Shown here piece by piece: positions 4,390-36,726 of a stretch of 61,119 nt of DNA. Positions within the stretch are counted from its first letter, which is position 1, and every line of letters begins with the position of its first letter. The DNA lies in the NCBI GenBank assembly GCA_020073085.1, contig JAIQFV010000021.1:1-61119 (forward strand), written 5' to 3'. The notes below the pieces were generated by a model. The model ran no database searches and had not been told where the DNA came from. It saw only the letters and a list, made by a program, of their open reading frames with translations. A program made the position numbers and the translations under genes. The stretch comes from Terriglobia bacterium. Lineage in GTDB: Bacteria; Acidobacteriota; Terriglobia; JAIQFV01.

Positions 4390-4390
4390 G

Positions 4391-4596: not shown

Positions 4597-4640
4597 GGAA
4601 CTTCGGGACCGCCCCGAAGTTCCCAGGGCCCTGGGGTTTT
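4597..4640. terminator. bidirectional terminator-like double hairpin
   Basis: A perfect 11-bp stem (GGAACTTCGGG / CCCGAAGTTCC, 4597-4607 and 4613-4623) with a 5-nt loop is followed by a palindrome CCCAGGGCCCTGGG (4622-4635) and TTTT. It lies between the convergent permease and the secreted-protein gene, where a shared terminator would be expected. Confidence 0.65.
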
Positions 4641-4659
4641 CTTGAAGCGCAGATTTCCT

Positions 4660-7884: not shown

Positions 7885-8691
7885 AAATGCCTCCCTTCCA
7901 ATGAAATGAGCCGTAGGATCAGATTACTGAGAGACAATCCGTAGGCCACATTGGACAGCAACCACCCTTCCGCAACACTAATCCCTTTTATGATAGGAAC
8001 CACACTTAAGATTGCCTTGGATCGCACGACCAGAAATAAAAACCAAGCGCGGGGTATCCATAAGGAATGGGGTCTCCTAAGAGCACTTTTGGTAAGGCGT
8101 GATCTTGTGTCCTTGCGGTGTCTTACATCCTACTTAACGCGAATGCTTCAGGCGGGGAAAATTTAGGAGTTATGCATTGTCAAAGCGTACACGCGAACCG
8201 CTTTGTGCGAGTCAGGCGTTTCGCGGGAGCTACCCCCAGAATGCCGGCTCTTTTAACTATGTGAAGAATATCACAAGCAATGCTGAAATACAAGGAGTGG
8301 AGGATGCTTCATTCTCTACTGTCGAAATGGTAAAGAATAACGGGGTGGCATCCTGCGTCAACGGGAATCTGGCTGCGCCCTTTGACCACCTGCCTCTACC
8401 CACAAGGTGCCTGCATTCTGAAACCCGAATTCGAATTCTTGGCAGCCTCTGGGCAAACGGTTTTCCAAGGCAGAAGATCATTTTGGATTGCCTCTGGCCA
8501 AATCAGACTGGGAAGACTGAGCAGTGGGCTGCAAGGCGGTTCGCCAAACGATCGAATGGATTAGAGATCCTGCGGGCGATGATCCAAGCGCCCCCGCACC
8601 GCCTGGGTGAAGGACATGCTTGCTGAGGACGCGGGCCACTCCTTAAATCAAATCCCAAAAGTGGATTGTGGGGATGACACCCTCAAATATT
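7885..8691. other. intergenic stretch, no confident gene
   Basis: This spacer lies upstream of the secreted-protein gene. One open frame (8177-8626, TTG start after AGGAG) has an amino-acid composition unlike a real protein and no recognisable motif, so it is not called. No RNA or repeat was recognised. Confidence 0.5.
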
Positions 8692-8850
8692 TTATGGGCG
8701 CTGAAGGAGACGCTCGATCAAATCCAGTTTCATCTGTACCGCCAATTGTCCGGCGCGGATACGGTGTAGGATGACGAGCGCCCAGATGACCGCAGGAAGG
8801 ATAAAGACCATCAACAGGACAGCGAACAAATCAACTATACCGATGTTCAT
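8692..8850 (-). CDS. small single-pass membrane protein (52 aa)
   Basis: A 52-residue protein with one strong membrane helix (about 5-29, FAVLLMVFILPAVIWALVIL) and a basic, amphipathic C-terminal tail ending ERLLQRP. A GGGAG ribosome site stands about 5-8 nt before the ATG. The helix-then-charged-tail layout is common in small stress or regulatory membrane proteins, but no family is recognised. It lies 109 bp beyond the end of another membrane-protein gene on the same strand (8960-9382) and could share its transcript. Confidence 0.6.
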   Translation of the reverse strand: MNIGIVDLFAVLLMVFILPAVIWALVILHRIRAGQLAVQMKLDLIERLLQRP

Positions 8851-8959
8851 CGATCTCCCTTCCCATTCCAGACCGGCTTAACGGCCGGCTCATCGCCCGC
8901 CTGGACCGCTCTGGTTCTCTGCGGGCCCCCGCTTGCAAAGGTTAGACAGGTCCACGCTA

Positions 8960-9382
8960 TTAACCCCGGACGATTACAAACGCCACAACCGCGGCCGCAA
9001 CCAATGCAAAGACAAACAGAATTAGCTCTTGGCCCGTGAGCCAAGGGACGCCACGACCTGTCCTATCGTACTTGGCTCGACCCTCTCGCGAATAGAGACA
9101 GTAGTGACCTGCAATCATCAACGGAGTGAAACAGATAAACACGTACCCCACGCCGAGAACGGTCCGTGATATGACGCCAAAGGTGCCGCTTTGGAGCGGC
9201 AGCACAACGCATGCGAACAAGACAGCCAACATGAAAGTGAGGTTCACGAAGTCTGAGATCAAAAGCCACGTGCGGCCGCCCTGCTCTTCCACCGAAAGCT
9301 CTCTCGCGATTCGCCACCCGAATACAGCGAACTGGAGAGCCAGCAGCGCGGGGACCAGGGTGAAGGGATTCAGCGTTTGCAT
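8960..9382 (-). CDS. four-helix membrane protein of unknown function
   Basis: A 140-residue protein with about four membrane helices (residues 6-25, 38-60, 67-90 and 115-139) and short loops. A longer open frame begins upstream, but AGGAG 6 nt before the ATG at 9382 decides the start and gives a sensible hydrophobic N-terminus. No catalytic or binding motif is seen. The small membrane protein at 8692-8850 follows in the same direction. Confidence 0.7.
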   Translation of the reverse strand: MQTLNPFTLVPALLALQFAVFGWRIARELSVEEQGGRTWLLISDFVNLTFMLAVLFACVVLPLQSGTFGVISRTVLGVGYVFICFTPLMIAGHYCLYSREGRAKYDRTGRGVPWLTGQELILFVFALVAAAVVAFVIVRG

Positions 9383-9527
9383 TTTCAGCTCCTGCGGAGT
9401 CCGACGACCCCGCGACTCGCCTTGTGGCGCTCGACGGGTGCCTGTTACCCCAGGCGGCCCGGTCAAAACCGTGAGGGTTCTCGCGTGTTGAAGGCTCGAG
9501 GGTCAAAAAATGATGAATTCCGGAACA

Positions 9528-9767
9528 TCAAATCTTTAGCTTCTTCCCTTTCGGATTACACACCTTACAGGCTACAAAACCTGCTGCCTCGGCCTCTTTA
9601 GCTGTCTTGAAGGTAATCCTGCTCCCCAGCTTGATCATCTGTGCCCATTGGCAACTTGGCCGGTGATACTGGCTGGAATTCTTAGAACCGACAAATTGGG
9701 CGGGAAGCGTCGTCGAAAGCATGAAGAACAGGAACAGGACAGTGAGCGATTTGTGGAGTACTGACAT
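9528..9767 (-). CDS. secreted Ada-type zinc-binding-like small protein
   Basis: A 79-residue exported protein. A signal peptide (about 1-22, ending STTLPAQ) precedes a short domain with the pattern GSKNSSQYHRPSCQWA...GFVACKVCNP. That is the YHxxxC...CxxC arrangement of the Ada metal-binding fold, here used outside the cytoplasm. In the DNA-repair protein Ada the fold holds zinc through cysteines; small secreted versions are common and their role is not established. The frame is open further upstream, but the GGGGGCTCCC-ATG context and the signal peptide favour the start at 9767. Confidence 0.8.
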   Translation of the reverse strand: MSVLHKSLTVLFLFFMLSTTLPAQFVGSKNSSQYHRPSCQWAQMIKLGSRITFKTAKEAEAAGFVACKVCNPKGKKLKI

Positions 9768-10553
9768 GGGAGCCCCCTTGAACTCTACCGAAGGGTGATT
9801 CCTCGTCTCACAAAGGAGAATGCTGAGGCCAGCCGGTCGCTCGAATTTGATGGACCGACAATGGGGGAGGTGGCCTTCTAGAAGTCTAGAGCTTGACTGA
9901 TTTGATTGCAAGAGAAAACTTTCACATCTCCTGCTTTAAAAGAAAAATGAACGGGGTGACCGCTCTTCCAGTTGAAGAAGGAGGCGCGACGCTGAATTCA
10001 GCCGTTGTCTGACCTTTTTACACTGCAGCCCGGCTGGACAGAGAACACTTCATGGTTTGAATCGCCGACCAGATCCTTATATGGCGAAAACGCCGCAACT
10101 CCAAACACCAGGCTGGGAGCGCAAGTTCGAAGGAAGTAGGCCGAGAGCAGCGGGCCATCCATTTCCACCATTTTCTCCTTGCTTCTCAGCCTGATATGGC
10201 GGTAGCATAAAAAAGATAAGTCGAGAAAAGGGTGTAGTACTTGGACTCGGCCGTGCGGCCGTTGGGCAAATTGAGACTTGCGCAGCGCTCCCCAGGGTTG
10301 GAGCAAGCGGAATGACACACGTGACGGGTCTAGTATTGTCACGGTACCCGTTCAAGGGCCAGGAGACCGCTGGTCGGATCATGGTCATTTCGATGACAGC
10401 CAGACCTCTCGCCGGCTCAGGTATTGAATACGCACACGTATCCCGGCGCGACATGTACCCCATACCCCAGTTGAACTGAATGATTCCCGGCCTCCCCTCA
10501 TGGGGAGAGCCATGATATTGAAGCGGAATCGAAATCAATCTTGGTGATTTGAT
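9768..10553. other. intergenic stretch, no confident gene
   Basis: Several open frames on the minus strand overlap one another here (for example 10077-10658), but none has a ribosome site, a signal peptide or a recognisable domain. No RNA gene was seen. Confidence 0.5.
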
Positions 10554-10567
10554 CGGTCGGCCGACCG
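10554..10567. promoter_or_regulatory. 14-bp perfect palindrome, possible operator
   Basis: CGGTCGGCCGACCG is a perfect 14-bp palindrome 80 bp before the barrel-protein start and 16 bp before the leader hairpin. Its size and CG-rich symmetric form resemble TetR-type operators. No TetR gene is adjacent, so the assignment is an inference. Confidence 0.4.
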
Positions 10568-10583
10568 TTCGACTATCACCAGC

Positions 10584-10633
10584 GAAAGAGCCCGTTTCCA
10601 TCGCGATGGGTGGTGGCGGGCTCTTTCTTTTAA
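10584..10633 (+). terminator. terminator-like hairpin in the leader of the 10647 gene
   Basis: A perfect 11-bp stem, GAAAGAGCCCG (10584-10594) with CGGGCTCTTTC (10617-10627), is followed by TTTTAA. Its loop contains a second palindrome, CCATCGCGATGG. It ends about 10 nt before the ribosome site of the next gene, so it can only stop transcripts entering that gene: either as an attenuator in its leader or as a barrier to readthrough. Confidence 0.65.
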
Positions 10634-10646
10634 GGGAGGAGGATTC

Positions 10647-11321
10647 ATGGATGGACACCCAAGATCTGCATGGCTAACATTCCTTGTGGTCTCGATGCCA
10701 ATCGCTTTTCTAACCCTGCCTGCTCCGGAGATGAACGCACAGACGCCAACAAATTTTACGACGTCTTTCTCCATCGGAAAAGCAAGTAATCTGGGCTATA
10801 TCAATCCGCTGGTCGGGGGATACTTTCAAGGGGATTACCGAATTGACGATCGCTTTCTCGTGGGCGGCCAATTCAAGCTCGGCTGGGAGCGCAAGTATGT
10901 TGGCGATGGTCACGCCACCGCCGAAAACTCATATCTGCGGACCTATTTTCACCGGAACCTCTTTGCCGAGGTCGGCGAGTATAGCGGCAAGTATTTTACC
11001 TCACAATTCGATAAGGCATTTTTCTCGCCCAATATCGCCGCCGGCATCGATATCAAATCGGCGCGTTTGCCGGGCCATTCCCCCCTGCCCATGTTGATCA
11101 AGGTTTCTTACCTGTTCCCTGACGCCATCTCCCCAAATCGGACATCGGCATTCATCTATGAGCATGATGCCCTGGTTGGGAGGCCACGGAACCGGATGCG
11201 TCTGTTCCTCGGATTGGAATTGCAGTTTGTGCGCTACAACCAGTCGGCTCATCGAAACACGGGGGCGTCTGCTGCGCTGAAATTGGGTTTGCGGTACCAG
11301 AAGCCGCATATTTCAGAATGA
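10647..11321 (+). CDS. outer-membrane beta-barrel-like protein
   Basis: A 224-residue exported protein. Residues 1-32 are a signal peptide (hydrophobic 10-25, cleavage near MNAQ). The rest alternates aromatic and polar residues in short strands separated by GN/GD turns (FTTSFSIGKASN, YFQGDYRIDDRFLVGGQFKLGWER), and the last strand ALKLGLRYQKP resembles a barrel C-terminal strand. This fits a small 8-strand outer-membrane barrel, but the precise family is not recognised. GGGAGGAGG lies 6 nt before the ATG. A terminator-like hairpin and a palindrome in the leader suggest regulated expression. Confidence 0.75.
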   Translation: MDGHPRSAWLTFLVVSMPIAFLTLPAPEMNAQTPTNFTTSFSIGKASNLGYINPLVGGYFQGDYRIDDRFLVGGQFKLGWERKYVGDGHATAENSYLRTYFHRNLFAEVGEYSGKYFTSQFDKAFFSPNIAAGIDIKSARLPGHSPLPMLIKVSYLFPDAISPNRTSAFIYEHDALVGRPRNRMRLFLGLELQFVRYNQSAHRNTGASAALKLGLRYQKPHISE

Positions 11322-11549
11322 ATTTAACCTTGCTCATGACAGGGCGCTCAGGAGTCCCCATCGAACTCTCTAACCTGGAATCTTGAGTAGGAAATGCCGG
11401 AATGGGGGGCGATCCCGAATCCATTCCCGGACCGGGAGCCCGGGATTCACCGCGAGAGGCGCCGGGACTCAATCCTGCAGACGCGGGGCCGGTTCCCGAT
11501 GCGCCTGACCGGGCTTGACAAAGGCATCGGTTTCAAGGATTCTTCCCTC

Positions 11550-11756
11550 ATGGCCTATTCACATCGGAAGTTAACCGCAGGTTTTTTGATGCCTCTTTTG
11601 ATCGGGTTGATCGGGTTGTTCAACCTGATGCAGAGACCCCGCTTTGCCAGCTTTCACACCGTCGATGTTCTGCAGCTCATCGCCTCCGGCATGTGCTTTG
11701 GGGTCGCTCTGGCGGGTGTGTTCGCGCTGCTTCGAAGCGGGCAGGGCTCCTCCTAG
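11550..11756 (+). CDS. small two-helix membrane protein
   Basis: A 68-residue protein with two hydrophobic helices (about 9-28, FLMPLLIGLIGLFNLM, and about 40-62, LIASGMCFGVALAGVFALL) joined by a short basic loop. The open frame extends further upstream, but the region before 11550 has no protein-like character. AAGGAT lies about 12 nt before the ATG, so the start is only moderately supported. It converges on the sigma-factor gene, 71 bp away. Confidence 0.55.
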   Translation: MAYSHRKLTAGFLMPLLIGLIGLFNLMQRPRFASFHTVDVLQLIASGMCFGVALAGVFALLRSGQGSS

Positions 11757-11827
11757 GCCGGAGATGAAGGCCAGCCCCAGGCGTCAAACCCACGAGGCCC
11801 CCCGGCAGATTCGACGACGCATTCAAG

Positions 11828-13084
11828 TCAGGCGGTCGGTGGCTGCACTTCGCTGAGCCGCCGCTCGAGAAATCTCCGCTCGCTGTCATTGGTGACGAGG
11901 GCCAGCGCCTGTTTGTAGCTCTCCGCCGCTTCGAGTGAGGAGCCCAATCGGCGCAGCAGATCGGCGCGGGCGGCATGCAGCAGGTGATAGTGGTCGAGAT
12001 CGCCGGCCGCGGCAAGGGCGTCCATGATGGCGAGTGCCGGCCGGGGGCCCTGCACCATCGCGACGGCCACGGCACGGTTCAACATCACGATGGGAGAAGG
12101 TTGAACGCGCTCGAGAAGATCATACAGGCTCAGGATCCGAGGCCAGTCGGTGTCTTCCGCACGCGCTGCCTGACAATGCACGGCCGCGATTGCCGCCTGC
12201 AGGGCGTAGGCGCCGGGCCCTCCGCGGAACGCCTCCTCAACGAGCGGTAGCGCCTCGGCGATCTGCCGTTGATTCCAGCGGCGGCGATCCTGCTCTTCGA
12301 GAACGATAAGATCCCCGGCCTCATCGAGGCGAGCCTCGCGCCGGGCGTCATGAAGCAGCATGAGGGCGACGAGAGCCGTCGCTTCCGCCGGGGGCTGCGG
12401 AGATTCCAGCGACCTCACCAGACGCCCCAGCCGGATGGCTTCCGCACAGAGGTCCCTTCTCACCAGCGGCCCGCCCCGGGTTGCCGCATAGCCTTCATTA
12501 AAGATGAGATAAATCACAGTCAACACGGCGTCAAGCCGCGCCTTCATTTCCTTCGGTTCGGGCACGACATAGGGAATCCGGGCGTCGCGAATCTTACGCT
12601 TCGCGCGCACCAGCCGCTGCGCCATGGTCGGCGAGGGGACGAGAAAGGCCCGCGCGATCTCATCCGTCTCAAGGCCGCACAAGGTGCGCAGGGTGAGCGC
12701 CACCTGCGCCTCCGGGGCGAGCGCCGGGTGGCAGCAGGTGAAGATCAGCCGGAGGCGCTCATCGGGAATTTCGCTGGTGTCGTAATCCGGTTCTTCGATG
12801 TTGCGGACCGGCCCGCTGGTGGCGTAGGATTCAAGTTTTTCCTCGAACCGGGCCCTGCGCCGGATGCGGTCAATGGCCTTGTGCCGGGCCGTCTGGATGA
12901 TCCAGGCGCGCGGAAACTCCGGGACGCCGGAAACCGCCCATTGATCCACCGCGGCGGCAAAGGCTCCCTGCGCAGACTCTTCGGCCAAGTCGAAGTCACC
13001 GACGAGCCGAATCAGGGCTGCGACAATCCGGCCCCAATCGGAGCGATAGACGGTTTCAATGGCCTCAGCGACATTAAGCGGCAT
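11828..13084 (-). CDS. ECF42-type RNA polymerase sigma factor
   Basis: A 418-residue extracytoplasmic-function sigma factor. Region 2 (about 10-80) includes AEESAQGAFAAAVDQW and PRAWIIQTARHKAIDRIRRR. Region 4 (about 110-165) includes LTLRTLCGLETDEIARAFLVPSPTMAQRLVRAKRKI. A long C-terminal extension (about 185-415) rich in helical, TPR-like sequence (FNEGYAATRG, RDLCAEAIRLGRLV, ALQAAIAAVHCQA, YHLLHAARADLLRRLG) is the hallmark of group ECF42, which lacks an anti-sigma partner and is encoded next to DGPF proteins. The neighbours fit: two DGPF genes diverge from it, and each carries the same promoter-like motif. The extension is thought to control activity; the inducing signal is unknown. Confidence 0.93.
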   Translation of the reverse strand: MPLNVAEAIETVYRSDWGRIVAALIRLVGDFDLAEESAQGAFAAAVDQWAVSGVPEFPRAWIIQTARHKAIDRIRRRARFEEKLESYATSGPVRNIEEPDYDTSEIPDERLRLIFTCCHPALAPEAQVALTLRTLCGLETDEIARAFLVPSPTMAQRLVRAKRKIRDARIPYVVPEPKEMKARLDAVLTVIYLIFNEGYAATRGGPLVRRDLCAEAIRLGRLVRSLESPQPPAEATALVALMLLHDARREARLDEAGDLIVLEEQDRRRWNQRQIAEALPLVEEAFRGGPGAYALQAAIAAVHCQAARAEDTDWPRILSLYDLLERVQPSPIVMLNRAVAVAMVQGPRPALAIMDALAAAGDLDHYHLLHAARADLLRRLGSSLEAAESYKQALALVTNDSERRFLERRLSEVQPPTA

Positions 13085-13112
13085 GCCTGATTGTAAATTT
13101 TTTTTGCGGAGG

Positions 13113-13138
13113 TGTCGATTTCGATCCTCCGCGTTCGA
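13113..13138 (+). promoter_or_regulatory. candidate ECF42 promoter, first DGPF gene
   Basis: TGTCGA (13113-13118), a 16-bp spacer, then TCGA (13135-13138). The same TGTCGA-N16-TCGA pattern precedes the second DGPF gene. It matches the TGTCGA -35 and CGA-type -10 elements described for ECF42 sigma factors. The leader to the start codon would be about 170 nt. Confidence 0.6.
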
Positions 13139-13222
13139 TTTACGGATGGAAGCGCCTGAAAAAGGTGCCTCACATTAACACAAACATCCTTGAAGATTTT
13201 ACGAAATGGAGCTCGATTCAAT

Positions 13223-13250
13223 GTAGGGGCGTATAGCTATACGCCCCTAC
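13223..13250. repeat. 28-bp perfect palindrome (GTAGGGGCGTATA half-site)
   Basis: A 28-bp perfect palindrome with arms GTAGGGGCGTATAG / CTATACGCCCCTAC lies in the leader between the sigma factor and the first DGPF gene. It has no T-run, so it is more like a small palindromic repeat element than a terminator. Confidence 0.7.
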
Positions 13251-13317
13251 GGCAAAGATTCCGCAATTGTCAATTGTATCTTTAGTTCCCCGATGTGTAT
13301 TGGGAGGAGACTTAACC

Positions 13318-13743
13318 ATGCGATTCATGATTTTGATCAAGGCCAACAAAACTACAGAGGCAGGCGTTCTCCCGGATGAGAAGCTCCTTACGGAAATGGG
13401 AAAATTCAACGAAGAGCTGGTGAAAGCCGGCGTGCTGATCGCGGGCGAGGGGCTTCACCCCAGCTCGAAGGGTGCGCGCGTCAGGTTCGCCGGAGGGAAG
13501 CCGACCGTGATGGATGGGCCGTTTATCGAGACGAAGGAGCTGATCTGTGGATTCTGGTTGTGGCAGGTGAAGTCGAAGGAAGAGGCCATCGAATGGGTCA
13601 AGCGCTGCCCCAATCCCCATAACGAAGACACGGAGATCGAGATTCGTCAGGTGTTTGAGGCGGAGGATTTCGGGGACGCGCTCACGCCCGACCTCAGGGA
13701 GCAGGAGGCGTGTATGCGCCTGCAGGCGGCTGGGAAGAAATAG
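13318..13743 (+). CDS. DGPF/YCII-related protein (ECF42 partner 1)
   Basis: A 141-residue cytoplasmic protein with the MRFMILIKANK start, the VMDGPFIETKELICGFWLWQ core (DGPF box) and the IEIRQVFE end typical of DGPF/YCII-related proteins. These ferredoxin-like alpha/beta proteins are the standard genetic partners of ECF42 sigma factors; their biochemical role is not settled. GGGAGGAG 8 nt before the ATG fixes the start at 13318 rather than further upstream. It is preceded by the TGTCGA-N16-TCGA motif and diverges from the sigma-factor gene. Confidence 0.92.
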   Translation: MRFMILIKANKTTEAGVLPDEKLLTEMGKFNEELVKAGVLIAGEGLHPSSKGARVRFAGGKPTVMDGPFIETKELICGFWLWQVKSKEEAIEWVKRCPNPHNEDTEIEIRQVFEAEDFGDALTPDLREQEACMRLQAAGKK

Positions 13744-13841
13744 AAGTGGCGTCTGCAGGCGCTTTTGAAGCTACGAACAGCTTCGAATACCGAAACGTCA
13801 GCGAGCGTCGTGCTTCACTTCAAAACTTTTCTGGATTGCGG

Positions 13842-13867
13842 TGTCGATCAGGACACTTGCCATTCGA
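13842..13867 (+). promoter_or_regulatory. candidate ECF42 promoter, second DGPF gene
   Basis: TGTCGA (13842-13847), exactly 16 bp, then TCGA (13864-13867), 21 bp before the start codon. Spacing and both half-sites match the copy at 13113-13138, although the spacer sequences differ. Confidence 0.65.
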
Positions 13868-13888
13868 TTGACTCATGGAGACACGCTA

Positions 13889-14245
13889 ATGAAATATATG
13901 TTGCTGATTTATTCCGACGAGCAGGCCTGGACCGAACCCGAGCGAGTGCAGTGTTACGAGCAGTCGACACAAGTTGCGCATGAGATCAAATCGGAGGGAC
14001 ACTATCTGGCCGCCCACCCACTGCAGCCTGTTTCGACGGCAACCAGCGTCCAGGTGCGCGACGGCAAACGGCTTGTCACCGACGGTCCGTTTGCGGAGAC
14101 CCGCGAACAACTCGGCGGCTATTTCCTGGTGGAAGCGCGGGACCTTGACGCGGCGATCGACATTGCCGGGCGGATTCCGGGTGCGCGCAAGGGCACTGTC
14201 GAAATCCGGCCAGTCATGGAGATCCCGGACCTGCCCGTGAATTGA
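13889..14245 (+). CDS. DGPF/YCII-related protein (ECF42 partner 2)
   Basis: A 118-residue DGPF protein: MKYMLLIYSDEQAW start, VTDGPFAETREQLGGYFLVE core and VEIRPVMEI end. It is a diverged paralogue of the gene 145 bp upstream, and the two sequences differ at most positions outside the DGPF box. It has its own promoter-like motif 21 bp upstream, so it is probably transcribed directly by the ECF42 factor. The frame is open a little further upstream, but that part overlaps the motif, so the ATG at 13889 is preferred. A broken membrane-protein gene follows 11 bp downstream. Confidence 0.92.
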   Translation: MKYMLLIYSDEQAWTEPERVQCYEQSTQVAHEIKSEGHYLAAHPLQPVSTATSVQVRDGKRLVTDGPFAETREQLGGYFLVEARDLDAAIDIAGRIPGARKGTVEIRPVMEIPDLPVN

Positions 14246-14256
14246 TGGAGGGGGTC

Positions 14257-14397
14257 ATGACGGATACGCACCGTCCGCGACGTGTTGGTCGAAGCATCGG
14301 TGCCTTGCTCGCGAGCTTTCTTGGGGTGGTCATTCTCTCCATCGCCACCGACATGACCATGCACGTCATGGGTGTCTTCCCCTCTTTGGGCCAACCT
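14257..14397 (+). pseudogene. truncated membrane protein gene
   Basis: The first 47 codons read like the start of a small multi-helix membrane protein: a basic N-terminus, RSIGALLASFLGVVILSIATD, then MHVMGVFPSLGQP. After GQP the frame becomes repeat-like sequence with no further helices. Homologues I recall continue with more membrane segments after that point. A hairpin repeat (14406-14436) begins 9 bp after the break. The gene follows the second DGPF gene with an 11-bp gap and was probably part of the same transcript. Confidence 0.6.
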
Positions 14398-14405
14398 CGG
14401 GATTC

Positions 14406-14436
14406 CCGGGATGCTCCAGAGAGCAGAGCATCCCGG
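14406..14436. repeat. hairpin repeat at the break of the truncated gene
   Basis: An 11-bp perfect inverted repeat (CCGGGATGCTC / GAGCATCCCGG) with a 9-nt loop. It has no following T-run. It sits just after the point where the upstream membrane-protein gene loses homology. Confidence 0.6.
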
Positions 14437-14655
14437 CTACCGAAGCACGCTCTTGTGAGAAGCGGTCTTCGCCTCTATAATTTGTCACCTTCAAGAGATG
14501 GAGCGGTACGGGTTTCCCGCGAGGGGAGACCCTGTGGACGAAACGTCGTGCTGGAATGAGTTGTGAGAGATGGAGTGCAGATCGTTGAAGCGAGGGCACA
14601 CGTCTCTTGAGGCTCGAGATTTCATGACAACCTCAAAAGAAAGGAAGGAGTGCGA

Positions 14656-15834
14656 ATGAGCAAGGTACGAGTATTGGTAGGCACACGCAAGGGCGCATTC
14701 GTCCTGACGTCGGACGGCAAGCGCGAACAGTGGGAAGTCAGTGGTCCTCACTTTGTCGGCTGGGAGGTCTACCACCTCAAGGGATCACCCGCTGATCCCA
14801 ATCGGTTGTACGCGTCGCAGACCAGTGGCTGGTTCGGGCAAGTGATCCAGCGCTCCAATGACGGCGGCAAGACGTGGGAGGCGCCCGGGGGCGGGCCCAC
14901 GATGACGCCCGGCGGCATGCCCGCAGGCGAGAGCAATAAATTTGTCTACGACACAACGCCAGAAACCGGCAAACCTCTCACCACGCATCAGTTTTACGAC
15001 GGCACGCCCCACCCCTGGGTGTTCAAACGCGTCTGGCATCTTGAGCCCTCGCTGACGGATCCGGATACCGTCTACGCCGGGGTGGAGGACGCCGCCTTGT
15101 TCCGATCTACCGACGGCGGAAAGAGCTGGCAGGAACTCGCGGGTCTGCGCGGCCATGGCACCGGACCGCACTGGCAGCCCGGCGCGGGGGGCATGTGCCT
15201 GCACACGATCCTGCTCGACCCGGGCAACGCGCAGCGGATGTTCATCGCCATCTCGGCAGCGGGCGCCTTTCGCACCGACGACGCCGGCAAGACCTGGAAG
15301 CCGATCAACCGTGGACTGGTTTCCAGGTATATCCCCGACCCAACGGCCGAGGTCGGTCACTGCGTTCACCGCATTGCACTGCACCCGTCGCGGCCGAACG
15401 TGCTGTTCATGCAGAAGCATTGGGACGTCATGCGCAGCGACAACGCCGGAGACTTGTGGACGGAGGTCAGCGGAAACCTGCCGACCGACTTCGGATTTGT
15501 GATTGATGTGCATGCACACGAGCCGGAGACCATTTACGTCGTCCCCATCAAGAGCGATTCGGAGCACTTTCCGCTGGATGGGAAGCTGCGGGTCTACCGC
15601 AGCCGGACGGGCGGAAACGACTGGGAAGCGCTTACCAAAGGTCTGCCGCAACGCGACTGCTACGTCAACGTATTGCGCGACGCGATGGCCGTCGATTCGC
15701 TCGACAAATGCGGAATCTATTTCGGGACCACGGGCGGGCAGGTTTATGTATCGGCGGATGCCGGAGACAGTTGGGCCCCGATCGTCCGCGATCTTCCGGC
15801 CGTGGTTTCAGTCGAGGTCCAGACGCTGCCATGA
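14656..15834 (+). CDS. BNR/sialidase-like beta-propeller protein
   Basis: A 392-residue protein without a signal peptide, built from repeated BNR/Asp-box motifs: [65 protein letters not shown] and [12 protein letters not shown]. These S-x-D-x-G-x-x-W turns define sialidase-type propellers. No sialidase active-site arginine triad could be assigned, so an enzymatic role is doubtful and a binding scaffold is equally likely. AAGGAAGGAG precedes the ATG. The stop codon overlaps the next gene's start by 4 bp (ATGA), so the MoaD/ThiS-like protein is translationally coupled and probably a functional partner. Confidence 0.85.
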
Positions 15835-28031: not shown

Positions 28032-29216
28032 CTACGGGCGGGCCGGGACAAGCTGTTTCAATTTTTGTTCGGCGCTGTCGCGAATGGCATTCCGCCGCGG
28101 TTGCGGGTAGGTTGTGTCCTTCGCGAGCAGTTCGAGAGCTTTCTTTGCGTTCTCGATCGCCAAATCCTTCTGACCATCCGCCACGTAGGCGTCCGAAAGG
28201 CTGTCATACACGTTGGGGGAGTTCGGAAATGCCGTGACATTCAGTTTCATTATCTCGACCGCCCCCTTTGCATCCCCCAGCTGGAGATGCTCGTAACCGA
28301 GCAGGTTGACGATGCGTTCGGGGAACAGGTTGGCTTTGGGATCGCGCTCGCGCGCCTCCGCCAGCATCTTCGCGGCTCTGCTGGCGCCCCCGGGCTGATC
28401 GATCACTTCCAACGTTTTGAGCAGTCGCGGCTCCAGCGGGGATCCGTTCGTTCTTGGAACGCTTTCCGGCCTCTTCATCAGGACGGCCCCCCACCACTCC
28501 GCGATCAGTCCCGGCAGCTCCGTGTGAACCGCGAACATTTCCGCGCCATGCCCTCCCTTTGCATAGGACTCAAAGCGGCTGGCCGGGCTGGCAGACAGGC
28601 TGAACTGCCACCGCATGGTTTCCGTGAAACTGCCAAACAAATCATCCTCCGCCGCTGCGGTGAAGACCGGCAGATTCTTCGATGATTGCAGGAACCGTCG
28701 TCCCTCGCGATCGGTGCTGCCGGAGAGCAACACGAGCGACTTCACCTCCGGGTGCCGCCGGGCCAGCCGGATGGAGTTGTTGACCCCGCAACTGGCTCCC
28801 CCGGCGCCAATCACGTCGCGGGCGACCCCCGGCTGGGACACGAGATACTGATAAGCCACGTCGATATCGCCGGGCCAGGTCTCTGTGATGATCTTGTTTT
28901 GTTCTTGGGGGGTCAGCTTGTCAAAAGGAGTGCCCCCACTCTCTCCAAACCCCCGGTAGTCCATGGTCAGAACGTTGATTCCCGAGGCGGCGAGGCGTTC
29001 GGCGAGCACGTCCCATAATTTCCGTTGTTGGTTGCATTGATGAAGCAGCAGGACCCCAGGACCCGGCTTGGCCGCAGCAAAATACGTCGCCTTGAGAAGG
29101 ATCCCGTCGGGCGCAGTCAGAGTGACGGTTTGCACCGCGAGCATCGGCGTTGCCGCAATGCTCAGCGGGAGTAGAAACGCTAAAAAAGCCCACGACAAAA
29201 CTTGTCTGGTTCGCAT
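28032..29216 (-). CDS. exported alpha/beta hydrolase with C-terminal TPR-like region
   Basis: A 394-residue protein. A signal peptide (about 1-27, WAFLAFLLPLSIAATPMLA) is followed by a dienelactone-hydrolase-type alpha/beta hydrolase domain (about 30-265) with GxSxG-like nucleophile GASCG, preceded by MDYRGFGESGG. Residues about 285-390 are helical and TPR-like (PERIVNLLGYEHLQLGDAKGAVEIM, SPNVYDSLSDAYVADGQKDLAIENAKKAL). Such a combination of hydrolase and TPR units occurs in secreted acidobacterial proteins; the substrate is unknown. GGAGG 5 nt before the ATG at 29216 decides the start. It follows the methyltransferase after 74 bp, so it may or may not share its transcript. Confidence 0.85.
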   Translation of the reverse strand: MRTRQVLSWAFLAFLLPLSIAATPMLAVQTVTLTAPDGILLKATYFAAAKPGPGVLLLHQCNQQRKLWDVLAERLAASGINVLTMDYRGFGESGGTPFDKLTPQEQNKIITETWPGDIDVAYQYLVSQPGVARDVIGAGGASCGVNNSIRLARRHPEVKSLVLLSGSTDREGRRFLQSSKNLPVFTAAAEDDLFGSFTETMRWQFSLSASPASRFESYAKGGHGAEMFAVHTELPGLIAEWWGAVLMKRPESVPRTNGSPLEPRLLKTLEVIDQPGGASRAAKMLAEARERDPKANLFPERIVNLLGYEHLQLGDAKGAVEIMKLNVTAFPNSPNVYDSLSDAYVADGQKDLAIENAKKALELLAKDTTYPQPRRNAIRDSAEQKLKQLVPARP

Positions 29217-29290
29217 GATCACCTCCATACACGATTGTAGGGTTAATTCGGTTAAAGGAAAGAAGAATGGCTCGACCCGGCCGTGGATTT

Positions 29291-30055
29291 CTAAAATGGC
29301 GCCTTCTGTGCCGTGATGATGAAGTTCCTTGCGAGCCAGCGGCTATATCTGCGACGGCCGAGTCGTTCCAGTTTTTTCGCCATGCGGGAGGGCGGTATCA
29401 GCCAGTTTCCCGCGTGGAGAACAAAGTTATAAAAATCCACTCGAAGGACTTTAAAACCAAGCTGCTCCAAACCTTCAATCACCTGAGTGTCGCGGTACAA
29501 GCGGATGTCCTGACGATTGCTCATCCTGGACCTCAGGTCGGTGAGACGGGCGGGGAGGGAATTCAGCATGAGCAGTCCGCTGGACTGATTGGTAAAGGTC
29601 ATCACGGCGTGTCCAGCGTGACGCAGCACCCTGCGCGCTTCAGCAAAGAAATCCTGGGGAGAAGTAAGGCACCCCATCACGGAAGTGGCGATCAGGCCAT
29701 CAATTGTAGCATCGTCAAAGGGAAGCCTTTCGGCCTGTGCAACAATGAAACGAAGGTTTCGACACAGCGGAGTGTCCGCCGATCTCTGACGGGCGAACTC
29801 CACCATGCGGACGTCATGATCGGCCCCGATGAGGGAGGCGCCCTGATCGCTGCATGCGCGCATCAGATGGCCTGTCCCGCATCCCAGGTCGACCCATCGC
29901 TGTCCGGGGAGCATGATCTCGCCGCAGATTCCCAGGGCCAGTTCACTGGCCCGCCTGAAAATGAAACTCCTGCCGGAGGCCCGGGGTCCATCGTACATGC
30001 GGTCCCACTCCTCGGGCTCAAATTTACCGGCGGGGAGCCGGGGTGGCAGAGACAT
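29291..30055 (-). CDS. class I SAM-dependent methyltransferase
   Basis: A 254-residue cytoplasmic methyltransferase with motif I VDLGCGTGHLMRACS (about residues 54-68), acidic motif II end IGADHDVRM, motif post-I LPFDDATIDGLIAT and HAVMTFTN. The C-terminal third is variable and basic (KKLERLGRRRYSRW). GGAG precedes the ATG. Its first 32 bp overlap the end of the adenylate-forming enzyme gene, a sign of coupled translation. Together with that gene and the NMT1-like gene it forms a three-gene cassette; the methyl acceptor is unknown. Confidence 0.9.
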   Translation of the reverse strand: MSLPPRLPAGKFEPEEWDRMYDGPRASGRSFIFRRASELALGICGEIMLPGQRWVDLGCGTGHLMRACSDQGASLIGADHDVRMVEFARQRSADTPLCRNLRFIVAQAERLPFDDATIDGLIATSVMGCLTSPQDFFAEARRVLRHAGHAVMTFTNQSSGLLMLNSLPARLTDLRSRMSNRQDIRLYRDTQVIEGLEQLGFKVLRVDFYNFVLHAGNWLIPPSRMAKKLERLGRRRYSRWLARNFIITAQKAPF

Positions 30056-31658
30056 GATTCTCCTCGATTGACGAAGGTTCCCGCCTTTTGAGAGCCGGCA
30101 ACAGCTTTTGCCATTCGGTCAGTCTCGGTCGTTCCCGAATTACTCGAAACACCCCGGCCTGGTTCCAAAATCTGGAAGCCAGCGCAGTCCGCGGGTTGGC
30201 ACGCCGGAGCTTCTCCAGGATGGCGCCGATGAGTCTATCTTCATCCAGATGTTTTACGTCGGGGCTCACCGCGATGACCACCCGACTCAAACCCTCGTGC
30301 TCCTGCATTTCCCAGAACTGGTAGCAGTCGGGAGGGGCCCCCATTTCTTCGAGAGAAGCGCTGATCATGCTGTCGAGTTCCGAAGTCAACAGCGACATTC
30401 CCTCCACCGTCAGCTTTTCATAACTGTGGACGTTTGAAAGGTGCACGTCAAATCCGATCTCGCCAAAAAGGCAGCCGCACCGTTGGGTATTCAGCCGACC
30501 ACAGTCTCCCAGCTCGGTATTCAGCATGATCCTGGCCGTGTGAGCAGACAGCGTTGTAAATAGAAAGCGTTCCACTTGTCCTTCCCTTGTCCCGGCCTCT
30601 TGGCCCAGAGGGATCAAAGCAACCCGGTCCGTATACAAATGCATGTCGTCCACAACGGAGCGGTGGGGGCAGGCGGCGCCGATCAAGCCGGTTTCGGTCG
30701 CCACGTAACGCGGGTACGCCTTCAATCCGGCGGACTCGATGAAACGCCTCCGGCTCTCCGTCAGCGGCTCCCCTCCCGTGAAGATCACGCTGCCTTCCAG
30801 ATCAGTTCCCTTCTCCAAGGCTGCCTGTGCAATTCGCACGGCGGAACTTCCGTAGGTCCTCACGACGCTGAGGCCGTTTGTCTTTCGAGCCCCCTCCATC
30901 CATTCCACGATCCTGCGAGCGCCAGACAGGTCCACATATTCGGGCCGTGGCACCGGGAGGCCGCACGCCCTGCCGCCCCAATAAAGGAACTCCAGAGTCA
31001 GACGGGTTTCCAGTGAAACGTCAGCGAAGCGGGTGGGCAGGTGCGAAAACCATTTCTCCGGAACGACCCCGAGCTTCAGGTTCATGAAGAGGTTGTGAAT
31101 CCCCGCGACGCCCGGCAGGACCGGATACCAGAGGGCCAGAGGGGCCTGCAGCACGCCATGCAGGGTGTAAAGCAACAACTCGTGGGCACTCTCTTCGGCA
31201 ATGAAATCCCAATCGTATACCGCCCGGGTGCTCTTTCCTCGACTTCCGCTCGACGAGCCTTCGATGCGCCGGCCCATCAGAAAAGGATTTTCAAAATCAG
31301 TCCCCCGGGTGTGCAGGGTTAGACCGGGTCGGCAGATCGGAGTGAGCGACTTGAACTCCTCGAGGGTCAGGTAGACGCCTTCATCCCGGAGACCTTCCAG
31401 GGTTTTCTCAATCCCGTGCGATCTGACGTTCGCCTGAAGATCGCTGAATTCGCACCCGGCCCAAACCAGCAGCCGGCGCAAGGGACTGCCGGGAATGTCG
31501 TACATCAATCGTTTCGCAAAATCGATGAAATGATTTTCTCGATTGGCCAACCGTTGGGTGAGTTCATGAACGGCCTGAGGGTAGGTGACCGGGTTCTGGA
31601 CGAAATCCCGAAATCCGCTGGCCAGAAGTGCCAGTTGTTTGATCCGCGAAAGTCTCAT
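30024..31658 (-). CDS. PaaK/CoF-synthetase-like adenylate-forming enzyme
   Basis: A 544-residue cytoplasmic enzyme related to phenylacetate-CoA ligase. Seen: EGSSSGSRGKST (about 133-144, the phosphate-binding loop), RTYGSSAV (about 268), IFTGGEPLTESRR (about 292-304), YVATETGLIGAACP (about 318-331, the Y-x-x-TE adenine motif) and YTDRVALIP (about 342). A C-terminal domain has YEKLTVEGMSLL. This family activates a carboxylic acid as acyl-AMP and passes it to CoA or another acceptor. The start is the ATG overlapping the preceding stop by 4 bp; the longer open frame upstream is a shadow of the NMT1-like gene. The N-terminal 130 residues are longer than in simple PaaK enzymes. Confidence 0.85.
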   Translation of the reverse strand: MRLSRIKQLALLASGFRDFVQNPVTYPQAVHELTQRLANRENHFIDFAKRLMYDIPGSPLRRLLVWAGCEFSDLQANVRSHGIEKTLEGLRDEGVYLTLEEFKSLTPICRPGLTLHTRGTDFENPFLMGRRIEGSSSGSRGKSTRAVYDWDFIAEESAHELLLYTLHGVLQAPLALWYPVLPGVAGIHNLFMNLKLGVVPEKWFSHLPTRFADVSLETRLTLEFLYWGGRACGLPVPRPEYVDLSGARRIVEWMEGARKTNGLSVVRTYGSSAVRIAQAALEKGTDLEGSVIFTGGEPLTESRRRFIESAGLKAYPRYVATETGLIGAACPHRSVVDDMHLYTDRVALIPLGQEAGTREGQVERFLFTTLSAHTARIMLNTELGDCGRLNTQRCGCLFGEIGFDVHLSNVHSYEKLTVEGMSLLTSELDSMISASLEEMGAPPDCYQFWEMQEHEGLSRVVIAVSPDVKHLDEDRLIGAILEKLRRANPRTALASRFWNQAGVFRVIRERPRLTEWQKLLPALKRREPSSIEENHVSATPAPRR

Positions 31659-32518
31659 CTCGTGGGTAAAAGGCTGGTCGCAATCTTGTCCAGGAAGGTC
31701 AGGTCCATATAGTTCGACGGAACCCCATTGATGTATCCCAATTCCAGCATGAGGTGCAGGATCCCTTCCATGGCCTTCTCGTTGCGCAAGGCGTCCACAT
31801 TGGGTTGATTTCTCCGGAGGGCCTCGCGGATGAACCGACGATTCACGCCGATGTACCGGGAGGCGATCTCGGAGGCTTCCTCCGGATTCTGGGCCACAAA
31901 GGCCGCGCCGAAAGCGAAGGCCCGAACCATTCCTTGAACCACCTCGGGCGCTTGATTCTTGAATCCGAGCGTGGTGGTCAGGGAGCAACCGGGGGCTCCT
32001 TTCCAAAGGTCTCCAGTCCTTCGAATGACTTTCCCCACTCCCAAAGCCTCCATCATGGTCGCGTAGGGCTCGACCATCGAAGCGGCATCCGCTCCCTGCC
32101 CAAAAAATGCAATGATGGCGCCATCCCCCGAAGGTTGCCTCATCAATTCAATGTCGGCCCACCCGAGCGACTTGATCAGTCCCATGGCGGTGAGGTCTTT
32201 AATTCCGCCGCGTTGCGGGATGACGACTTTCCGGACCTCCGCCAGGGTGATGCCCGTTCGCATGACGATGGCAGCCTCATCACATCCCGAGCCAGCCAAC
32301 AAGACTAGGCGGGGATTTTCCGCGGACACGACTCGCGTCCAAGGCATGACCGCAAATTGACATTCGCCGCTCGCAAGCTTGTGGGGAACCAGCCATGCGG
32401 TCGCCGCGATTTCCAGTTCCGCTTCCAGCCCCTCCGCTTTCAAGAACCCCTTTTCATAAGCAGCATAGGCCGGCATTTGGCAGATGCCGCGCAACAATGA
32501 AATCTTTATCTTAGTCAT
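31655..32518 (-). CDS. NMT1/THI5-like binding protein without signal peptide
   Basis: A 287-residue protein with the fold pattern of NMT1/THI5/SsuA periplasmic binding proteins: MPAYAAYEKGFLKAEGLEAE at the start (residues about 15-34), ECQFAVMPWTRVV (about 52), and a C-terminal AFAFGAAFVAQNPEEASEIA. It lacks any signal peptide or lipobox and begins at MTKIKISLLRG, so it should stay in the cytoplasm. Cytoplasmic members of this fold can be enzymes (THI5, MqnA-type) or sensors. No transporter gene is nearby. Its stop overlaps the adenylate-forming enzyme's start by 4 bp. No ribosome site is evident. The fold is well supported; the role is an open question. Confidence 0.8.
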   Translation of the reverse strand: MTKIKISLLRGICQMPAYAAYEKGFLKAEGLEAELEIAATAWLVPHKLASGECQFAVMPWTRVVSAENPRLVLLAGSGCDEAAIVMRTGITLAEVRKVVIPQRGGIKDLTAMGLIKSLGWADIELMRQPSGDGAIIAFFGQGADAASMVEPYATMMEALGVGKVIRRTGDLWKGAPGCSLTTTLGFKNQAPEVVQGMVRAFAFGAAFVAQNPEEASEIASRYIGVNRRFIREALRRNQPNVDALRNEKAMEGILHLMLELGYINGVPSNYMDLTFLDKIATSLLPTR

Positions 32519-32762
32519 AGGCTTTGATTATCGGGTTTGCTTTCGTTTACAGTCAGGGAAGGCAGTTGCGAGTGGCTAAAACGTCGCCATCTTTTCACTT
32601 AGAATCGCCGACATTATATGCGGACGGCAACTATCGAACAACAGGAAAGAACAAAGGGATTCCCCGTCGAGACAATGGGGGAAGGGTGGGAGATTTAGAG
32701 TATAGAATTGAATCACCCGCATGAAGGGGCCCGTACCCGTGCAATCTTCACTTGGATCGGAC

Positions 32763-32827
32763 GGGGACAGACGCCTGTTCTCAGAGAAATGTGAAGCTTG
32801 CTTGAAATTGGGTGTCTGTCCCCTTCT
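32763..32827. repeat. GGGGACAGAC/GTCTGTCCCC inverted-repeat element
   Basis: A 65-bp element with ends GGGGACAGACGCCTGTTCTC and TTGGGTGTCTGTCCCC, followed by TTCTT. It lies 32 bp past the 3' end of the exported protein gene 32860-33453 and upstream of the NMT1-like gene. Confidence 0.8.
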
Positions 32828-32859
32828 TCAGTTGGGATATGCGACCCGTTCCTCTTCGG

Positions 32860-33453: not shown

Positions 33454-33664
33454 GACATTTTCCTCCAAAAATAGGCGGGTTTAGATCCACCCTGTGAATC
33501 GTTCAGAAAGAATCGTGACAGCCCCGATTGCCTCCGGGATTCAAGCGAAGAAACAGGTGGTTGTCATTATTTGTTCGAGGCCGAGTTCCCATGGTCTGGC
33601 CGATAGGCATTCGGTGTGAAGGGGGATGGTATCACATTAATTCACGCGGGAATGGGGTTGATGA

Positions 33665-34107
33665 TCGGATGGGGACTGACACCTGTTCTTAAAGAAACTT
33701 GAAGATTGTCTGCAAGAAGGTGTCTGTCCCCTTTTTTCCTGTGGGATGCGGGTGCCGCAGGCATGTGTTCTTTGCATGCCTGCGTCTGGTCGGATGGGGA
33801 CTGACACCTGTTCTTAAAGAAACTTGAAGATTGTCTGCAAGAAGGTGTCTGTCCCCTTTTTCCTGTGGGAGGCGGGTGCCGCAGGCATGTATTCTTTGCA
33901 TGCCTGCGTCTGATCGGATGGGGACTGACACCTGTTCTTAGAAAAACTTGAAGATTGTCTGCAAGAAGGTGTCTGTCCCCTTTTTCCTGTGGGAGGCGGG
34001 TGCCGCAGGCATGTGTTCTTTGCATGCCTGCGTCTGGTCGGATGGGGACTGACACCTGTTCTTAAAAAAACTTGAAAGCGGCTTGGAACCCGGTGTCAGT
34101 CCCCAAA
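33665..34107. repeat. composite tandem array, unit about 124 bp, 3.5 copies
   Basis: Units begin at 33665, 33790, 33914 and 34038. Each unit joins two elements: a 65-bp GGGGACTGACACC...GGTGTCTGTCCCC inverted repeat and a palindrome GCAGGCATG...GCATGCCTGC with short flanks. The fourth unit stops after the first element, 3 bp before the S15 hydrolase stop codon. Copies are over 95% alike by eye. Both component elements occur singly elsewhere in the window, so the array arose by amplification of a junction between them. Confidence 0.9.
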
Positions 34108-34110
34108 ATT

Positions 34111-36726
34111 CTACGGCATCTTGAACTTGGCATCGTCGATCGGAATATTGTGCCTCATTTCAAGCTCCCGGTATGTGGTGAAGGACCGGCCTGATTTGGA
34201 ATTCATTAGAAACGGCACCTTTACCCCATCGACCTCTCGATAGTCATCGAAGTAGTTGTCGACCTCGACCAGGGCGATCTTCGATTGCCGCGATCCGTCC
34301 TTACCAACGCTGATTTGCAGGGCTCTTGTTTTCCCGTCTCTGCGAAGAAGAAGTCGCGTGCGCGTATCGAAAAACAGCTTGGCCGCGTTGCCGCCAGTGT
34401 CGGTGCATTCGACGACGTAGGCCTCCCGGTCCCCCACCCGGTCCTTGCCCCTGAGCTTCATCTGGGGATAGAGTTCGTGCAAATGGACCGCGCTGTGCAG
34501 ACTCGAGGAATTGCCAAAGGCGGCCGATTGTGGACCCTCTAGAACATGCGCTGCCTCGCCCGGGTTCTGAGACCAAGTCACTGTTCCATCCGACCCCCAT
34601 GCCCACCGGCCTGCCCCTGTCCGAATGGTCAACCTTTTGTCCGGTTCCTTGGAATAGGTTTCGATCCATTCGCTGACTCCATCAGGACTGATCCTTACCC
34701 CTTTCGTCACTCGGGTCGCCAATTTCTCAATGGCTTCGCGCCCGCCAAGCGCTTGAATGTATCCATCGATGATCTGGGGCACCGTAGGATAAGGAGTGAC
34801 CGCCCCGGATGAAGCAGACTCGGCTTCTACCGCAAGATCTTTCCCCTGACCTGGCCTGTTCCCTCCGGGTGCTGGCCAGGGATCCCAGGGAGCGACTGTT
34901 GGATTTCCGCGGGGGATGACGGGCAATAGAATAGAAGAGGCATAAAGTTTGTTTCTGGCGACGGAGATCACCGGAGGACCATTAGACGGGATTCGGGCAA
35001 AGGTATCTTTATCGGCCCCTGCAAGGGCGACACGGATGCGGTGACCCTTTCTGATCAGGATCGACGTCGAGAGCAATCCAAACTTCAGTTCCGCCACTTG
35101 CCCCGGGACCAGCGGCATCCCGTCCTTCCGCATAAACGTGTGATAGGGCTTCAGCAATTTATACGGCGGTTGGTCGTCCGATATCTTTCGGTGAATGGCC
35201 CGTAATTCGCCTTCGGTCAGATAGGTGACTTTCCCGTTTTCATCGACGTCCTCGAGATAGACGAAGAAGGCGCCATCCGTGTGGGTCGAGGTTACATACA
35301 AGGTGACCATCGGAGCACCCGTGATCTCGATGTTATCGGACAGGGGCGCACTTGTGTACGAGAGCAAGCGGCGGTCCTCCTCGGCGCGGTCCGGATAAAT
35401 GACCGGACCGCCGCCCACTTCGGTATGCCAGCGGTTCTCGGCCCCCGTGGTCGCTTCATAATCGATCTTGTAGGTGTCGGCGCCTGAATCGGCCTGGGGA
35501 GGCGCCGGGGAAAGCGTGTGATCTTCGGCCAGATACCATTTCTGAGGGGCGCTCCCGGCAGGAGGCCAGACCTTCGTTGACTTCCACCGTTCCTCGCCCA
35601 TCGTATAATAGATGATCTCTCTCTCCGACCCGGCTCCGGCGTCGATCCCTTTCAGGTAGTGGTCGAAAAAACGCAAACACTCCGCCAACTGTGGAGAATT
35701 AGGGGTCAAAGGAGACAGGTACGGGTCGGCGTTCTGAGATCCGCCGTGATTCCAGGTGCCGATCATGACCCTTTGGGGATTGGTGAAGGTCGTGAAGCGG
35801 CGCAGGACTCCATCGGCCGTCGCGGCGTCCAGCCAGCTCCCCCATCCGTAAATGGCCGCCTTCGACTGCTCGATTTCCCTCTGATAGGTGTGAATGCTGA
35901 AGTCGTCTATGGAGAGGCCCGATTCGCGATCATCGCGATACGTGATCGCCTTGGCCGCTTGAAAGAGATCGACATTCCCGGAGTGCTCCTTCACGGCCGC
36001 CCTCAACATCTTTAGGTTACTGTCTCCGTCAACCGGCTTGACTCCCAGGTTATTGTCCAGCTGGTGATTGGCCTCGTTCCAGGTCTTCAGGATCCATTCC
36101 GCAAACACGCCGCCCGGATAGGCGATATCGCTGTAGTTGTCGAACTCCTCGAACCGGGGGATAACGGCCTTGACCGCAGCATGACCGGAGACTGCAACAA
36201 GTTGAGCTGTTCCTCCCTCGTAGGAAGTGCCCAAGGCCCCGACTTTGCCGTTGGACCAGGGTTGACTGACAATCCAGTCGATAATCTCGCGGTCATCCAG
36301 GATCTCTTCGCGCGAGAAGGGAATTCGCCAGGTGCCAAAGGAAGCGCCGGTCCCCCGGACATCGACCAGAACCATCGCATAGCCATGGCTGATGAAGAAT
36401 AACTTATCCGGGCCGGGGCCTTGTACACCCCGCGCGCGCCAATAGCGGGTGAGATTCAGCAACGCGGGAATTCTCTCACCCTCCGGCAGGCCCTTGGGCA
36501 AGGCGACATCAACGGCAATCTTCACTCCATCTCGCATCGTGATGTAAAGGGAGTGCGTGCTGGCAGTGTTGTAGAGCCTTTCAGAATTGATGCTCGACGA
36601 GGGAGTAGACTCGCTCGTAGGAGGGGTCGATGGACCAGCCTTTTCGGCATGTGGCAGAAACGCCGCTGGAGAGCTCCCCAGAAGGAGGAAAATACTCAGA
36701 GAAAATGCCAGCAACCTCGAGCGCAT
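34111..36726 (-). CDS. exported CocE/NonD-type S15 hydrolase fused to a LolA-like C-terminal domain
   Basis: An 871-residue protein. Signal peptide about 1-22 (LLAFSLSIFLLLGSSPAAF); AGGAGG 5 nt before the ATG at 36726. The S15 catalytic domain (about 45-400) has VLVDVRGTGAS, the nucleophile motif GTSYEGG (Ser about 175), GWGSWLDA (likely Asp) and GTWNHGG (likely His). A PepX C-terminal jelly-roll domain follows (about 400-600). Residues about 650-871 form an extra domain beginning PQIIDGYIQALGGREAIEKL and ending VDGVKVPFLMNSKSG, resembling lipoprotein-carrier-like beta domains common in acidobacterial secreted proteins. The enzyme probably cleaves ester or amide bonds (X-Pro peptides or cocaine-esterase-like substrates). 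It diverges from an AraC regulator gene. Confidence 0.9.
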   Translation of the reverse strand: MRSRLLAFSLSIFLLLGSSPAAFLPHAEKAGPSTPPTSESTPSSSINSERLYNTASTHSLYITMRDGVKIAVDVALPKGLPEGERIPALLNLTRYWRARGVQGPGPDKLFFISHGYAMVLVDVRGTGASFGTWRIPFSREEILDDREIIDWIVSQPWSNGKVGALGTSYEGGTAQLVAVSGHAAVKAVIPRFEEFDNYSDIAYPGGVFAEWILKTWNEANHQLDNNLGVKPVDGDSNLKMLRAAVKEHSGNVDLFQAAKAITYRDDRESGLSIDDFSIHTYQREIEQSKAAIYGWGSWLDAATADGVLRRFTTFTNPQRVMIGTWNHGGSQNADPYLSPLTPNSPQLAECLRFFDHYLKGIDAGAGSEREIIYYTMGEERWKSTKVWPPAGSAPQKWYLAEDHTLSPAPPQADSGADTYKIDYEATTGAENRWHTEVGGGPVIYPDRAEEDRRLLSYTSAPLSDNIEITGAPMVTLYVTSTHTDGAFFVYLEDVDENGKVTYLTEGELRAIHRKISDDQPPYKLLKPYHTFMRKDGMPLVPGQVAELKFGLLSTSILIRKGHRIRVALAGADKDTFARIPSNGPPVISVARNKLYASSILLPVIPRGNPTVAPWDPWPAPGGNRPGQGKDLAVEAESASSGAVTPYPTVPQIIDGYIQALGGREAIEKLATRVTKGVRISPDGVSEWIETYSKEPDKRLTIRTGAGRWAWGSDGTVTWSQNPGEAAHVLEGPQSAAFGNSSSLHSAVHLHELYPQMKLRGKDRVGDREAYVVECTDTGGNAAKLFFDTRTRLLLRRDGKTRALQISVGKDGSRQSKIALVEVDNYFDDYREVDGVKVPFLMNSKSGRSFTTYRELEMRHNIPIDDAKFKMP

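Follow-up and report, generated by a model that had tools for sequence, protein, structure and literature searches.

A cytosolic NMT1-like protein paired with a PaaK-like adenylate-forming ligase in an acidobacterial genome and in Nitrospirota, and relatives of the ligase in ABC-importer operons

Overlapping genes and their surroundings

Analysis of the window, by which we mean the whole stretch of 61,119 nucleotides from a Terriglobia bacterium (contig JAIQFV010000021.1), showed three overlapping genes on the minus strand at 29291-32518, of which the first encodes an NMT1-like protein, the second an adenylate-forming ligase, and the third a methyltransferase. The NMT1-like and ligase genes overlap by 4 bp (ATGA), and the ligase and methyltransferase genes by 32 bp; the coordinates and both overlaps agree with those given in the first-pass annotation of this DNA. 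The features of the locus, from upstream to downstream, are as follows.

32519..32859, minus strand: intergenic region 5' of the NMT1-like gene, which must hold the promoter of the cassette; contains one repeat copy at 32755-32837
31655..32518, minus strand: cytosolic NMT1-like protein, 287 aa; solute-binding-protein fold by homology
30024..31658, minus strand: PaaK-like adenylate-forming ligase, 544 aa, counted from the ATG at 31658
29291..30055, minus strand: class I SAM-dependent methyltransferase, 254 aa; Methyltransf_11 domain and DLGCGTG motif
28032-29228: alpha/beta hydrolase with a signal-like N-terminus

The ligase reading frame stays open farther 5' of the ATG at 31658; this ATG was taken as the start because the homologue in Nitrospirae MAG Kmv42 (locus L013) aligns from its first residue. 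The simple gene caller used here misplaced some starts, and the NMT1-like genes of the window and of one related locus (L017, below) were added by hand. The hydrolase had initially been considered a possible partner of the three genes; its signal-like N-terminus and the lack of a counterpart beside the orthologous pairs speak against this, and the hydrolase probably lies outside the module. The window genome has a single NMT1-like gene of this kind and one close copy of the methyltransferase; elsewhere it encodes one paralogue of the ligase (36% identical), which lies beside a flippase-like gene.

The next gene upstream on the minus strand ends at 32860. A promoter scan of the intergenic region (32519..32859) gave one weak sigma-70-like match, at 32556-32527 and at chance level, and an Rfam scan upstream of the cassette gave nothing above threshold. 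The repeat copy at 32755-32837, with the ends GGGGACNGACACC...GGTGTCTGTCCCC, is diverged; the same repeat forms a tandem array with units of ~124 bp at 33604-34118 of the window and is possibly a palindromic repeat of the mobile-element-like kind. Plasmid searches found no match, and the sole PADLOC match was to a generic methyltransferase domain.

Families, motifs, and cellular location of the encoded proteins

The ligase matches no Pfam family. Its similarity to the NCBIfam model paak_haloarch (E 1.6e-7) lies far under the cut-off of that model, its score against the equivalog for phenylacetate-CoA ligase proper (PaaK) is 30.3 bits (cut-off, 700), and PaaK-like ligases of the PDB are matched at E 7e-7; entries matched in the PDB include 6siw, 6wuq, and 9s3l. 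The core motifs of PaaK-like adenylate-forming enzymes are intact (GEPLT, RYVATE, and LNTELGD), as is the catalytic lysine near the C terminus (Lys518). A profile search, together with the loci already collected, yielded 29 usable homologues, and Glu297, Asp385, and Lys518 are invariant in all of them. The same is true of Cys330, His340, Cys394, and Cys396, a set that is also seen in the alignment with AjiA1 and is likely a metal site. An enzyme with these motifs is expected to convert a carboxylic acid to its acyl-AMP. It thus shares the core motifs, the Cys-His-Cys-Cys set, and the C-terminal lysine with phenylacetate-CoA ligase, AjiA1, and BagE/FevW, but differs from these PaaK-like ligases in being about 100 residues longer, in its linkage to an NMT1-like gene, in the absence of a Pfam match, and in NCBIfam scores far below the cut-offs. 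The PaaK-like assignment made in the first-pass annotation is therefore borne out by NCBIfam and PDB, whereas the N-terminus that it described as unusually long aligns with those of the homologues and is conserved throughout the family.

The third gene had been read as a SAM methyltransferase, and its product indeed belongs to class I of these enzymes, with the DLGCGTG motif and a Methyltransf_11 score of 73.8 bits (E 2e-20; cut-off, 21.2).

The product of the first gene belongs to the NMT1/THI5-like superfamily (PF09084 and PF13379), with scores above the curated cut-offs for both NMT1_2 (E 3e-12; 47.2 bits versus 24.7) and NMT1 (E 2e-7; 31.4 bits versus 20.5). Only 3 codons separate its ATG from the upstream in-frame stop, its relatives described below have room for 9-21 codons, and all of these proteins start directly at the first predicted strand, so that a normal signal peptide is lacking in the window protein and its orthologues. 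The window protein carries neither the export signal nor the lipobox of solute-binding proteins, and the earlier description of a binding-protein fold (by homology) without a signal peptide stands. AlphaFold models of the NMT1-like protein and the ligase reached a mean pLDDT of only 46, from 2-3 input sequences.

MqnA and MqnD are cytosolic enzymes with a binding-protein fold and are a precedent for catalysis by that fold. The window protein has the same cytosolic location and broad fold as these enzymes and as THI5/THI13, but it differs from all of them in having no conserved histidine and an unrelated gene context, and it matched no MqnA or MqnD model of Pfam or NCBIfam at E 0.1. Its similarity to AF1704 is weak (E 0.07). 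A THI5/THI13-type single-turnover pyrimidine synthase, unrelated in function to the other two genes, would fit the shared Pfam family and the cytosolic location, and a profile of the NMT1-like proteins found in importer operons (see below) matches the THI5 and THI13 structures at E about 2e-7. THI5, however, needs the active-site residues His66 and Lys62 and consumes its own His66 (PMC10848271). The five cytosolic NMT1-like proteins have no histidine in common; of their His and Cys positions, Cys13 and Cys178 alone are invariant, and the genes are linked to a ligase rather than to thiamin genes. These findings contradict the THI5 analogy drawn in the first-pass annotation and make such chemistry very improbable here.

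Conservation of the gene pair across genomes

The NMT1-like and ligase genes are also neighbors in two genomes of the Nitrospirota, Nitrospirae MAG Kmv42 (L013) and G774 (L021), and in G315 (L017), from another lineage of the window's phylum. Identities to the window proteins are 67% (NMT1-like) and 51% (ligase) in L013, 63% and 51% in L021, and 59% and 43% in L017; at all three loci the NMT1-like gene comes first and 1-7 bp separate it from the ligase gene. Counting the window, all but one of the five known cytosolic members adjoin a ligase; the orthologues of the pair are therefore not scattered without linkage, a pattern that the first-pass annotation had named as one that would count against its reading. 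The fifth relative, in G882 (L036; about 51% identical), has no adjoining ligase, its neighbors being a glycosyltransferase-like gene and a HemN-like radical-SAM gene; conversely, a ligase from Deferrisomatales (L014; 44%) lies near a HemN-like gene and has no NMT1-like gene. The two HemN-like radical-SAM genes (L014:8046-9359, minus strand; L036:11892-13184, plus strand) encode proteins about 30% identical to each other, which may contribute a further reaction to this chemistry.

The three-gene extent originally proposed for the cassette holds across phyla for the NMT1-like and ligase genes but not for the methyltransferase gene, which accompanies two of the pairs and is missing from the other two. 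In L017 its orthologue (43% identical) occupies the same place, overlaps the ligase gene by 4 bp, and is directly followed by a second methyltransferase gene; no orthologue was found in the Nitrospirota genomes. The methyltransferase is best read as a lineage-specific tailoring step. In three genomes, genes of the ligase family also have nearby a methyltransferase of a second family, which carries the motif LLKTDLFEEAYG (L014:3961-4761, L017:12571-13533, and L076:290-1072).

Across the family, an NMT1-like gene is directly adjacent in 9 of the 29 ligase homologues, and the NMT1-linked ligases fall into three separate clades, each with full support. NMT1-family genes are scarce (36 matches in 107 Mb of the genomes concerned), and about 0.0015-0.0019 adjacent genes per locus would be expected by chance. 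The crude chance probability of nine adjacent genes among 29 is ~3e-19 to 3e-18, a figure that treats as independent loci that are in fact related to each other; if only three independent events are allowed, one per clade, it is about 1e-5. Mere chance neighbors, or decaying genes without a joint function, would be in keeping with the rarity of the cassette, the NMT1-like gene of which was found in 2 of 396 genomes of the window's phylum and as strong matches in 2 of 345 genomes of the Nitrospirota set. The conserved gene order, the overlaps, the high sequence conservation across phyla, the intact motifs, and an adjacency far above expectation leave this explanation with hardly any probability.

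Two further matches, in G737 and G779 (24%), proved to be exported binding proteins of the ordinary type, each with a signal peptide and ABC genes nearby, and served as outgroups only. Exported binding proteins at L023:7709-8752 and L024:8771-9706 show the motifs HH and HPCC in place of the CQ and APGC of the cytosolic proteins, and the one in L023 adjoins corrinoid-protein and methyltransferase genes.

Importer operons of related ligases and a possible internalised module

At five of the loci (L012, L046, L069, L071, and L076), the NMT1-like gene adjacent to the ligase is of another, lipoprotein-type solute-binding kind. These importer-group proteins are Pfam NMT1 proteins with an invariant lipobox cysteine, which is confined to this group. 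The L012 ligase, one of the five more distant members, is 29% identical to that of the window. The operons of L012, L069, and L076 also encode an ABC ATPase together with a binding-protein-dependent permease, and that of L071 the ATPase; in L069 a methyltransferase gene sits between those of the binding protein and the ATPase, and in L076 a TonB-type receptor gene lies 6 bp behind the permease gene. In these genomes, then, the ligase is a component of an uptake system, sharing an operon with a binding protein, an ATPase, and a permease. No ATPase or permease gene adjoins the window cassette. The first-pass statement that no transporter is adjacent is accordingly correct for the window and does not extend to the distant members of the ligase family, whose ABC-importer operons point to an origin from uptake. 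In L012, a single reading frame (4086-7922, minus strand) comprises an ABC-importer permease domain and a complete TonB-type outer-membrane receptor; a genuine fusion spanning both membranes would be surprising, and the frame may result from a stop that is missing or from an error in sequencing or assembly.

Profiles of the cytosolic and lipoprotein groups align over almost their entire length (274 columns) with a probability of 98%; sequence identity between the groups is no more than about 17-22%. The groups also differ in how fast they evolve relative to their partner enzymes: within the cytosolic pairs, conservation is higher for the NMT1-like protein than for the ligase in six of six comparisons (mean, 64% versus 49%), whereas in the importer group it is lower in 10 of 10 (31% versus 41%), the comparisons being pairwise and the independent ones fewer than the pairs. 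As far as sequences can tell, such a reversal would be expected had the protein acquired a function under tighter constraint, for example in catalysis or in obligate complex formation. SsuA/TauA-type solute-binding proteins of SsuBC/TauBC-type importers share their Pfam family and, as judged by homology, their fold with the window protein, and the other NMT1 partners of the ligase family are of this type, with an ATPase and a permease in the operon. The window protein differs from them in having no signal peptide, lipobox, or adjacent transporter and in evolving more slowly than its partner enzyme.

Our combined results give an even chance, in our judgement, that the NMT1-like/ligase pair is a module for substrate import and activation that has become internalised. 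In the transporter-linked form, a small polar molecule would enter by way of the lipoprotein binding protein and an importer of the SsuABC/TauABC type, to be activated by the PaaK-like ligase of the same operon. In the form seen in the window, the binding protein, having neither export signal nor transporter, would stay in the cytosol and serve the same ligand as the ligase; the adjacency of the two genes makes it most likely that both proteins handle the same molecule, presumably a carboxylic acid. The NMT1-like protein might either convert a precursor into the acid, much as MqnA, MqnD, and THI5, with their related fold, act on other compounds, or capture the acid and hand it over to the ligase, which would form the acyl-AMP and pass the acyl group to CoA or to an amine or hydroxyl acceptor, perhaps one on a precursor of an envelope glycan. 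The methyltransferase would then cap the product in two of the lineages. Two observations weigh against internalisation, namely, the NMT1-like gene of G882 without a ligase and the L014 ligase without an NMT1-like gene. With identity between the two NMT1-like groups so low, the link to the ligase may also have arisen repeatedly by recruitment instead of from a single internalised ancestor.

A different role for the NMT1-like protein would be that of a cytosolic sensor that controls the ligase in response to a bound metabolite, in the way that the cytosolic NrtA/CmpA-like C-terminal domains of NrtC and CmpC control the respective transporters. The profile of the cytosolic group matches the C-terminal regulatory domain of CmpC in the PDB at E 9e-6, and both proteins are cytosolic members of the same solute-binding superfamily; a domain of this type senses nitrate inside the cell (PMC13249358). 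The window protein, however, is a stand-alone 287-aa reading frame, neither fused to an ABC ATPase nor beside a transporter, and its partner is an enzyme that is less conserved than its supposed regulator. We consider a sensor unlikely.

It has also to be asked whether the pair, with the methyltransferase, decorates an envelope polysaccharide through acyl or amide groups, with the ligase as a CapK-like enzyme of glycan modification and the NMT1-like protein as an accessory of the export system rather than a relic of import. Ligase homologues do occur among glycosyltransferases, flippases, Wzm/Wzt-type exporters, and CapK-like ligases (L010-L014, L069, L072, L078, L079, and others), and a heptosyltransferase-family gene lies near the L017 pair. 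No glycan gene was found near the window cassette or the G774 pair, and the linked transporters are binding-protein-dependent importers, so that this scheme as a whole seems improbable to us. It nevertheless overlaps with internalised import and activation as to end use, and the frequent position of the ligase family among glycan and export genes makes envelope-glycan decoration plausible in that respect.

If the pair is indeed internalised, a more tentative and somewhat doubtful extension is that the cytosolic NMT1-like proteins are a new enzyme class derived from the binding protein of an ABC importer, making the acid for the ligase (perhaps with Cys13/Cys178) in an undescribed pathway of at least two phyla, with the importer-linked relatives keeping the earlier state. 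Each protein falls within a known fold or superfamily; a new class is possible. No described pathway with the NMT1-like/ligase pair was found in family libraries or in the accessible part of the literature. Together with the linkage across phyla, this upholds the first-pass view of an unrecognised functional cassette, though without the hydrolase and with the third gene in two lineages only. If true, the internalisation would show a transport protein turning into a cytosolic pathway component, with the importer-linked and internalised states both surviving beside one ligase family, itself one that Pfam does not recognise; and since simple binding assays can identify what the partner protein binds, the substrate of the ligase, otherwise impossible to guess, becomes testable.

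At two of the glycan-type loci (L010 and L011, about 7900-15400), the ligase-family gene lies between an exopolysaccharide locus, with flippase, glycosyltransferase, and FemAB-like genes, and genes resembling hemB, hemA, and the gene of a UbiD-like decarboxylase.
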